Source: a virus
Length of the DNA stretch: 26,326 bases
IMG/VR virus record: IMGVR_UViG_3300042924_001487
Span: 1-26,326 of that record
Reading direction: 5' to 3' (one strand)
A model generated the notes under the pieces. It was not told the origin of the DNA, made no database searches, and was given only the letters and a program-made list of their open reading frames with translations. Of this stretch, positions 14,352-24,524 are shown in pieces. How positions within the stretch are numbered: position 1 is the stretch's first letter; the number at the start of each line of letters is the position of its first letter. The position numbers and the translations under genes are program-made.

Positions 14352-14660
14352 ATGCGCTACGCTAAACGCCGAGACAACAACCACACCGACATCGTAGAAG
14401 CCTTACGTAAGGCCAACTTCGAGGTCATCGACTACGCCTCGGCAGGGCACGACATCCCTGATCTGTTGGCCGTCAAGCCAATGCACGACGGTATGGCGTG
14501 GATTTGCTGGATAGAGGTCAAGGCCAAGGGTGGGCGGCTGTCAGAGGGGCAGAAACGCTTTCAGGGCTTTTTCCAGCCGAGGGGCGAGTGGTACGAAGCC
14601 CGTGACCCAGACGACACCGTATGCGCCTTACAGGCGCTTTACTTGCAGCGCCTTAAATAA
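14352..14660 (+). CDS. VRR-NUC-like nuclease (102 aa)
   Basis: The short PD-(D/E)XK nuclease pattern is clear: HTDIVEALRKANFEVI, then HDIPDLLAV (D37), WIEVKAKGGRLSEGQKRFQ (E55, K57, Q67). Stand-alone proteins of this size are often described as VRR-NUC or Holliday-junction-resolvase-like and may cut branched replication intermediates before packaging. No ribosome site precedes the ATG; a -10-like CATAAT lies 6 nt upstream. The gene sits in the short rightward operon with the Cro-like regulator. Confidence 0.8.
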   Translation: MRYAKRRDNNHTDIVEALRKANFEVIDYASAGHDIPDLLAVKPMHDGMAWICWIEVKAKGGRLSEGQKRFQGFFQPRGEWYEARDPDDTVCALQALYLQRLK

Positions 14661-22582: not shown

Positions 22583-23040
22583 GGCAATGCCTCATTAGGT
22601 TTCTCAATCTGAGGTTTCTTCAGATTGTTGTGTGCGTCAAACAATGCTGCCTCTTCCGGCTCAATTAACTCAGCCTCAATGTCATCTAGGTCGGTTTTAT
22701 CCGTCTGGTGGACGGTTATACCAACAGCGTCAGTTAAGGCCAACGTAACACGTTTTGTTCCCGGTTTTGATTCTACAACGTCCCCGGCTCTGAGCAATCT
22801 CATACCAGTCTCAGTCCAAGCAATTATTTCCCCGGCAGCGCAGAGGAAAAAATGGTCTTTCTTGTGGACCTTTCCCACAATCAGCGTCCCGGCAGGCCGA
22901 AACACTTTGCGGCAGTACATGCCGCTAGAAAAGTAATGCTCCGTAGCCAATTCGGCTTGGGGCAACTTGATGGCTTCGTCCTGAAGCCGCTCAATTTGCT
23001 CCCGAGTAGGGATCTGAATTGGCAGGTCTAGTTCGGTCAC
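22579..23040 (-). CDS. Cupin-like virion-associated protein (153 aa)
   Basis: The middle (about 36-115) reads HYFSSGMYCRKVFRPAGTLI, VGKVHKKDHFFLCAAGEIIA, then RLLRAGDVVESKPGTKRVTL, which looks like a small double-stranded beta-helix (cupin). The His residues in the strand KVHKKDHF could bind metal. Related proteins are found in tailed-phage structural blocks with no proven role. The tail is acidic and probably flexible. The start overlaps the upstream structural gene stop as ATGA. Confidence 0.7.
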   Translation of the reverse strand: MTELDLPIQIPTREQIERLQDEAIKLPQAELATEHYFSSGMYCRKVFRPAGTLIVGKVHKKDHFFLCAAGEIIAWTETGMRLLRAGDVVESKPGTKRVTLALTDAVGITVHQTDKTDLDDIEAELIEPEEAALFDAHNNLKKPQIEKPNEALP

Positions 23041-23372
23041 GACACTTCCCGACCAGAGGATCGGATGTTGATAGCCGAGGCGGTACCGGCAATCGTGGAG
23101 ATAAATCCACCCGGTTGCAGCACATGGCCGACCAATTCAGGGAACGTATACGTCTCCGAGGGCAGCAGGGTCTTGTTCTTGATGATCAAGTTCTGGTTGC
23201 CCGACGCGTCAAACTGCGTCACGAGGTTGACCGACAGGGTAGCCGCCGATGCGCTGTAATTCGTGGCCGTGAACTTGTCGATAATGGTCGAGACGTTCGT
23301 GGCCACGTATTGTGTTGTTTGGGTATTTTCTGCAATTTTTGCAGGAATTAATACTTTAACGTTAACAGCCAT
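23037..23372 (-). CDS. Small virion structural protein, intact copy with recoded 5' end (110 aa)
   Basis: The product starts MAVNVKVLIPAKIAENTQT and continues TQYVATNVSTIIDKFTATNY as a beta-rich protein, with SETYTFPELVGHVLQPGGFI, consistent with a small head or tail decoration-type protein; I do not recognise the family. The first 19 residues are identical to those of the upstream HNH gene but are encoded with different synonymous codons. Third-position GC is low over the first 21 codons (2 of the 18 codons that follow ATG in the duplicated part) and jumps to GC-rich from the TAC codon at 23309. Its ribosome site (AAAGGAA) overlaps the HNH stop. Confidence 0.85.
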   Translation of the reverse strand: MAVNVKVLIPAKIAENTQTTQYVATNVSTIIDKFTATNYSASAATLSVNLVTQFDASGNQNLIIKNKTLLPSETYTFPELVGHVLQPGGFISTIAGTASAINIRSSGREVS

Positions 23373-23800
23373 AAAAAATTCCTTTAAACATGTGCCCAGA
23401 CTGTTCGTCTGATGACTTGATCAATTAGGCTGGCGGATACTTGATACTTCTTGGCTAACGCAATTACGCCGGTTTGACGGCTTTTGGGCTTGTATTGGCT
23501 TCTAATGCAAATAACGTCTTGTTCAGTTAATCGAGCATTTCCGTTCTTACTGCCTCGCGCATCCCTGTTTCTTTCATGGCGATCACGAGTGTTATCAGCG
23601 TTTGTTCCAATTTCTAAGTGATTTGGATTAATGCAAGCAGGATTGTCGCACTTGTGGCGCACACAAAGCCCTTTAATTGACTCCAACGGCACTTGATTTG
23701 CTTCGCAGTAAGCAAGCCGATGTGCCTTTAGAAGTTTTTTGCCTCTGTGGACAATTCCATATCCATCTCGGCTTTTGAAGCCAATCCAATCAAAGCAGCC
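23310..23800 (-). mobile_element. Inferred homing element: HNH endonuclease plus recoded 5' rescue segment
   Basis: The ~490-bp segment between the native-looking start of the virion gene (23857-23801) and its native-looking continuation (from 23309) contains the HNH domain, its stop, a new ribosome site and a recoded version of the first 21 codons. Removing it and joining the flanks would restore one uninterrupted GC-rich virion gene. Boundaries are estimates based on the codon-use break and the end of protein identity. The duplicated 57 bp differ at 14 positions, all synonymous. Confidence 0.75.
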
Positions 23801-23857
23801 AGTCTGCGTGTTCTCGGCAATCTTGGCCGGGATTAGGACTTTTACGTTAACTGCCAT
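23384..23857 (-). CDS. HNH homing endonuclease fused to the N-terminus of a virion protein
   Basis: The 157-aa product begins with 19 residues identical to the N-terminus of the downstream virion protein, then at G20 enters an HNH_3-type nuclease: CFDWIGF, DGYG, KAHRLAY, then CVRHKCDNPACINPNHLEIG with Cys65, Cys70, Cys75 and His80 as likely zinc ligands and His68 as the likely catalytic residue. The C-terminal third (ARLTEQDVICIRSQY, ALAKKYQVSASLIDQVIRRT) is a helix-turn-helix DNA-binding module usual in phage homing endonucleases. It uses the native virion start and ribosome site. It probably cuts uninterrupted alleles of this gene. Confidence 0.93.
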   Translation of the reverse strand: MAVNVKVLIPAKIAENTQTGCFDWIGFKSRDGYGIVHRGKKLLKAHRLAYCEANQVPLESIKGLCVRHKCDNPACINPNHLEIGTNADNTRDRHERNRDARGSKNGNARLTEQDVICIRSQYKPKSRQTGVIALAKKYQVSASLIDQVIRRTVWAHV

Positions 23858-23864
23858 GTGTCAC

Positions 23865-24524
23865 CTAAAAGGTAAATACCATTCGGACGCGGCCATTGAC
23901 GCCAGCCTTGCCCGGATCGCCGCCCTCTACCGGATCGCCACCGTCACCGCCAGCGCCACCGACAAGGCTGCCCACACCGGCAATCGGCGTAGCACCCGGC
24001 TGCGTGAAGGCTGCGCCACCGTTACCGTTCGTATTGGTCGTATTGCCGCCTGACGCCGTTCCGCCAGCACCCTGCTGACTGCCGAATATGCCGATGCCGC
24101 CATAACCGCCGAAGCCGCCCGTACAGATCATTTCAGGCAGGGCATAGGTTCCGGCATAGGCCACAGACTGACCGCCTGCACCGCCTACAGCGTCGCCTAC
24201 AGTGCCGCCTTGACCAGCCTCACCGACAGTGTACAGAATCGTTTTACCGGCGTCTGGGGCAGTTAGCACCAGCACGGTCTTGGAGTAAGCACCTCCACCA
24301 CCACCGCCGCCGGGGTTCTCTTGCGGCTCGTACAGGAACTCGCCAAATATCTGGGTAACAGTACCGTAGCCACCGCCACCGCCCGCACCCCATACCTCAA
24401 TGGTGACGCCCGTCGCACTGGCAGGAATCGTGACGCTGCCCGACCCGGACGATGCGTCGAATACACCGGCACCGGCTCCCCCCGTCGTGCCTGCAATCGC
24501 CGCTGCTAAGGTAGCGCCGCCCAT
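23865..24524 (-). CDS. Glycine-rich tail/receptor-binding protein (219 aa)
   Basis: I chose the ATG at 24524, which overlaps the upstream stop as TAATG; an in-frame start 30 bases earlier is less likely. The first 50 residues are a short adaptor (MGGATLAAAIAGTTGGAG), followed by SVTIPASATGVTIEVWGAGG and a long Gly-rich region with GGGGGGAYSKTVLVL and repeated GGxGG units. This matches Gly-rich phage tail proteins that form triple-stranded or polyglycine-helix tips, as in some adhesins. It follows two fibre genes, supporting a distal tail role. Confidence 0.75.
   Translation of the reverse strand: MGGATLAAAIAGTTGGAGAGVFDASSGSGSVTIPASATGVTIEVWGAGGGGGYGTVTQIFGEFLYEPQENPGGGGGGGAYSKTVLVLTAPDAGKTILYTVGEAGQGGTVGDAVGGAGGQSVAYAGTYALPEMICTGGFGGYGGIGIFGSQQGAGGTASGGNTTNTNGNGGAAFTQPGATPIAGVGSLVGGAGGDGGDPVEGGDPGKAGVNGRVRMVFTF

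Follow-up and report, generated by a model that had tools for sequence, protein, structure and literature searches.

The window, by which we mean the whole 26,326-bp stretch of viral DNA that was analysed, contains on its minus strand an HNH open reading frame (ORF) of 157 aa at positions 23857-23384, followed after an 11-nt spacer by an ORF of 111 aa at 23372-23037 that encodes a virion protein. Both ORFs open with the same 19 residues, MAVNVKVLIPAKIAENTQT. The original prediction had described these two ORFs, the 19 residues shared at both ATGs and 14 differences in the corresponding 57 nt, all of them synonymous; our codon comparison reproduced this, with 5 of the 19 codons identical and 14 of the 19 carrying a one-base synonymous change. 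An exact match of 19 residues at both ATGs is far above chance, because mismatched pairs of HNH-upstream sequence and downstream ORF give an exact 8/8-residue start match only 0.05 times per 137.

All features of the locus lie on the minus strand. The ribosome-binding site AGGTGA at 23861-23866, assigned to the virion gene as its native site, is now located 5' of the HNH gene. Positions 23801-23857 hold the first 19 native codons of the virion gene, which now encode the N-terminus of the HNH protein and lead into the body of a putative HNH_3 homing endonuclease, 138 codons plus the stop (23384-23800). A new ribosome-binding site, AAGGAA, was read from the sequence at 23380-23385, 7 nt 5' of the second ATG, and would be supplied by the element. 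A replacement (rescue) copy of the first 21 codons follows at 23310-23372, with codons 1-19 synonymous with the native start, and the rest of the virion structural gene, codons 22-111 and native, occupies 23037-23309. In the intact gene the GC content at third codon positions (GC3) rises from 0.14 over codons 1-21 to 0.78 over codons 22-111; the HNH-fused copy has a GC3 of 0.63 and the HNH body one of 0.40. As had been predicted, the intact gene thus begins AT-rich, with the refinement that this segment is even more so than the HNH gene.

The 111-aa virion protein has no Pfam match. Its predicted fold is all-beta (pLDDT 88, 62 aligned sequences), the closest BFVD models to this fold include virion structural proteins, and adjacent genes have matches in tail fibre and DNA ejection families. 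Residues 3-13, which are predicted to form the first beta-strand, fall within the duplicated part, and therefore its loss should harm the virion protein. The HNH body is barely over the curated cut-off of PF13392 (HNH_3; 25.4 bits, cut-off 24.8) and matches phrog_6254 with an E value of 1.8e-29. A search of the PDB at E 0.1 gave no sequence relative of the HNH protein, its single-sequence AlphaFold model (mean pLDDT 43) was unusable for viewing the active site, and scanning the genome contigs with the HNH body returned a single partial match. An Rfam scan of positions 22900-24200 for a group I intron found no intron family, and splicing is unnecessary at the virion gene because the downstream gene is complete and has its own start. 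Elsewhere in the window, at 23961-24019 in a glycine-rich tail gene on the other strand, Rfam reported a weak guanidine-III riboswitch match, which scores 18.9 bits where the cut-off is 36 and is almost certainly due to chance.

We used the virion protein to scan IMG/VR and obtained 80 loci with an uninterrupted gene, none of which (0/80) carries an HNH gene of this type; 18 of the 80 were compared in detail. Empty alleles among close relatives, for which the original prediction had proposed a search, were found in these 18. The nearest empty alleles (L001-L018) have the TTTACCTTTTAGGTGACAC-ATG context upstream and run without gaps into the virion gene. Over the first 57 nt the 18 relatives are 2-11 nt from the HNH-fused copy and 12-17 nt from the intact-gene copy, and over codons 24-111 they differ by 2-17%. 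The comparison with L001 gives 26% difference in the first 57 nt, which are the replacement, versus 2.3% in codons 24-111. The flanks of the empty loci align as well: L006 is 93% identical in a gap-free alignment of 2.5 kb upstream and 90% identical across 5.3 kb on the downstream side, and L004 is 96% identical over 2.3 kb of the downstream flank. Judged by the 57-nt distances to the 18 relatives, the resident start is the one fused to HNH, whereas the intact gene begins with a foreign segment, and the right-hand border of the foreign segment falls in codons 19-23. The flank-aligned empty alleles bear out the proposed insertion after codon 19, with an element size of about 485 bp, and their shared context agrees with the claim that the HNH gene uses the native ribosome site and start; that a new ribosome site and a replacement 5' segment restore the virion gene is upheld by the sequence layout together with the relatives. 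The site is polymorphic for the HNH gene, which is present in one allele and absent from the uninterrupted ones. The pattern of endonuclease elements with replacement gene ends is found here, in that a duplicated gene end flanks the HNH gene, the displaced copy matches relatives and the functional copy is foreign.

Our reading of the locus, to which we assign a probability of roughly 0.87, is that the virion gene was entered after its codon 19 by a mobile cassette of ~485 bp, which comprises the HNH_3 gene and, behind it, a ribosome site with a replacement 5' end. The predicted nuclease would now be expressed as an N-terminal fusion from the native ribosome site and start codon, together with the 19 native codons, and the respelled 5' end would let the rest of the virion gene yield the same protein. 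During a mixed infection the nuclease may nick or cut an empty allele near codon 19, and repair would then copy the cassette from the occupied phage genome. The occupied genome itself would lack an intact target, its native site being split by the insertion and the replacement differing in sequence. The mismatch between native and replacement copies would also discourage recombination between them that would delete the nuclease gene, and may hinder a repair that joins the cut end straight to the replacement, bypassing the nuclease gene.

A search for other phages in which the N-terminus of an HNH gene repeats the next gene, also suggested in the original prediction, was successful and found small nuclease, terminase and primase targets. 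With a threshold of at least 6 matching residues out of 8, the start of the next gene is repeated at 10 of 137 dereplicated HNH genes, compared with 0.4 expected per set of re-paired (mismatched) controls; as an estimate of frequency this count is biased, because the loci were collected by similarity to a few HNH queries and 7 of the 10 N-type cases concern one target gene. At gene ends, 4 cases reach 6 of 10 residues versus 0.35 in controls. Weak flank similarities were left uncounted, being mostly low-complexity or in the wrong frame; the exceptions are the individually confirmed anchored starts and ends.

A small phage gene starting MRRAARVDAN is occupied in L102, L104, L170, L171, L174, L175, L176 and L177, and a similar remnant was judged by eye to be present in L173. 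The relative of this gene in L177 matches phrog_93 (endonuclease). The native start lies 5' of the HNH gene, as an in-frame fusion in L102, L104 and L177 and elsewhere as a closed remnant, and the complete gene starts at, or shortly before, the HNH stop. Among the empty alleles is L255, which reads gaggttacgaaATGAGGAGAGCAGCAAGAGTTGATGCTAACCAA. The same flank and start are found in L104 and L174, with 94-97% identity over 200 bp upstream; in these two the L255-type start is followed by the HNH gene and then by the whole gene, in which codons 2-9 are spelled differently. The pair L102 and L104 shows the following pattern: outside the cassette their identity is 57% in the upstream flank, 67% across the native start and 60% past the gene; within it, 92% in the HNH body and 96% in replacement codons 1-9; and in the downstream part of the gene, 83% in codons 10-19 and 71% in codons 20-88. 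Because identity peaks in the HNH gene and the replacement codons, the replacement travels with the nuclease gene, and from this identity profile we conclude that the two moved as one unit between two divergent phages. In the window itself, a gene at 14352-14660 starting MRYAKRRDNNHTDIVEALR resembles this small nuclease gene and appears uninterrupted.

Among cultured Acinetobacter Friunavirus phages, APK48, WCHABP5 and AS11 have an empty primase gene, and ChT04 and Aci07 an occupied one. In the latter two the native start closes after MLHSSE, the HNH gene comes next and the primase restarts with MLHSSEW in other codons. A different HNH gene is located at that same primase junction in WU2001, SWH-Ab-1, Abp1 and B1 (L343, L344, L345 and L349). 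The replacement primase start in these four reads GTG TTA CAC (A/G)AA TCT GAA TGG CTT TGA, and the frame ends in CTT TGA, followed by C in 3 of the 4, which is the core of the release factor 2 +1 frameshift site. The primase is annotated there from an ATG further downstream and the intervening codons are mostly conserved in the primase frame; a frameshift, an alternative start and a broken replacement are the candidate readings. L199 has a replaced start in a terminase large subunit gene (PF05876).

The mirror form, in which the HNH gene is preceded by a replaced C-terminus and followed by the native end that it displaced, was found in L088 (target DUF1367/NinB), L110 and L228 (target a helicase), and with reserve in L098, whose upstream gene apparently holds an intein-like stretch; L206 is doubtful as a C-type case. 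Of 18 codons in L110, 14 are respelled synonymously, and in the replacement of L088 17 of 37 codons change amino acids. No relatives of the L088 case were found in E. coli genomes. The ORF at 2264-3913 of L098, with its duplicated C-terminal block around the HNH gene, is terminase large subunit-like, and its intein-like internal stretch has a weak phrog_85 match. Judged from the layouts of these loci, a replacement end is a recurrent design across HNH loci.

The origin of the replacement can be explained in two ways, both of which assume the same insertion. The first, which we give about an even chance, is that the replacement was captured from a diverged homologue, of low GC content in this case, as proposed for fungal mitochondria. 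It is consistent with the GC3 of 0.14 against 0.63-0.78 in the native parts, with the amino acid differences in other replacements, and with the fungal precedent, in which largely synonymous differences are attributed to transfer (PMC3630166). Against it, none of the examined loci is such an AT-rich donor and IMG/VR pattern scans returned only the same element. The second explanation, somewhat less probable than even, is that the replacement was recoded by selection during or after insertion, for nuclease escape and avoidance of recombination. A degenerate scan for the 16-residue core identified 24 contigs. The distinct natural core alleles have GC3 at 10-13 of 16 codons and are 2-9 nt from the native copy, and the replacement core of the window, with GC3 at 2 of 16, is 13 of 48 nt from the native start, beyond those alleles, and at least 10 of 48 from each of 14 distinct other alleles. 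At the small nuclease gene, L104 has 7 of its 8 post-ATG codons respelled with no amino acid change relative to its own native start, L174 has 7 of 7 same-residue codons respelled, and both are at the extreme of 38 natural starts. Against selection, the divergence between native and replacement copies is inside the natural allele range at 5 of 7 small-nuclease loci (L102, L170, L171, L175 and L176), and the replacements of L170, L171 and L176, as well as L088, also change amino acids. Because most parallel cases diverge within the natural allele range, capture is as likely; across the case set it appears to explain the data at least as well as selected recoding, and selection for recoding is possible.

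Ancient paralogy of the two genes is very improbable, and so is an ordinary gene fusion that would give the HNH protein a virion N-terminus to use, perhaps to become packaged into particles. The first 19 residues of the virion protein are indeed present in frame in the HNH protein, but the similarity ends exactly at codon 19, and the lack of the HNH gene in all 80 relatives and their empty alleles contradict an ancient pairing. Fusion is also not the common function of the layout, because the remnant is unfused to the HNH frame in L170, L171, L174, L175, L176 and ChT04. An assembly chimera of two strains, conceivable for a window that is a metagenomic virus record, can hardly be correct, as a second contig (L083, IMG/VR 3300034106_000185) has the same structure and is 100% identical over 7,940 bp, ending 24 bp past the window, and cultured, sequenced phages show parallel layouts. 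L083 is of the same phage lineage as the window and does not represent an independent event. Occupancy of the virion-gene site was found in one lineage only, and repeated homing transfer is therefore not seen there.

The insertion of a nuclease-plus-replacement cassette has its closest counterpart in fungal mitochondria, where mobile endonuclease ORFs carry foreign replacement C-termini for Allomyces atp6 and for Glomus atp6, atp9, cox2 and nad3, mostly with synonymous differences and with the displaced native copy matching close relatives (PMC3630166). The window element shares with these an endonuclease gene within a protein gene, a displaced native end and a foreign, mostly synonymous replacement. 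It differs from them in that its nuclease is of the HNH_3 rather than the LAGLIDADG or GIY-YIG type and that the N-terminus rather than the C-terminus is replaced and the native start taken over. The fungal-like C-terminal replacement also occurs in phages, in the mirror forms L088, L110 and L228. As far as its sequence allows us to judge, the window element is an HNH_3 homing element that works in the manner of the fungal replacement-end elements but at the N-terminal instead of the C-terminal end. The T-even homing endonucleases mobE, mobA and seg are likewise intron-less HNH or GIY-YIG phage genes in or beside important genes, free-standing or gene-splitting, and those that enter a gene give two working polypeptides; a duplicated respelled gene end, which the window element has, is not described for them in the available part of that source (PMC2988022). 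The ShiLan element is an HNH insertion within a phage methylase gene, open in frame with the host gene and, like ours, neither intron nor intein; the portion of the report available describes no replacement end, unlike the one carried in the window (PMC11855218). The HomeR home-and-rescue gene drives (PMC7968924) share the layout of a nuclease in its target gene plus a respelled functional copy, a likeness that is an analogy only; the putative rescue copy in the window differs from the native start at 14 of 57 nt. The original prediction knew of no described phage precedent, and our literature search, which covered few subscription journals, agrees, as no phage element carrying a replacement for a gene end turned up in it.

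A cassette of this type would explain how HNH genes can sit in the conserved start or end of an important phage gene without phage death, an intron or an intein, and would widen the known routes by which selfish nucleases persist. Annotation and phylogenies are affected too, as a phage gene start beside an HNH gene may be of foreign origin. The culturable phages provide a testable case of whether selection for nuclease immunity drives the synonymous divergence of a replacement end. We suggest, tentatively and with rather less than even confidence, that phage HNH homing genes commonly move as nuclease-plus-replacement cassettes that enter essential genes at either end, with replacements selected for nuclease escape and against recombination with the displaced end; they would then be a natural, widespread counterpart of rescue drives.

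Outside the count are several T7-like phages with HNH genes. C5, Bas102, ZH4, HC12 and pK2420 were rejected as duplicated-end cases; their HNH gene overlaps or abuts the next start, but an upstream N-terminal remnant is not obvious. The T7-like E. coli phages HC13, KM02 and pO91 (L334, L351 and L352) have three different HNH genes 5' of endonuclease I, and K1F and LM33_P1 have no HNH gene at that junction. The N-terminus of endonuclease I differs in each of the three phages, and in HC13 its start codon lies out of frame within the HNH C-terminal motif TWRH (ACATGGCGACAC). By their sequences, HC13, KM02 and pO91 look like cases in which the start was replaced without leaving a remnant.
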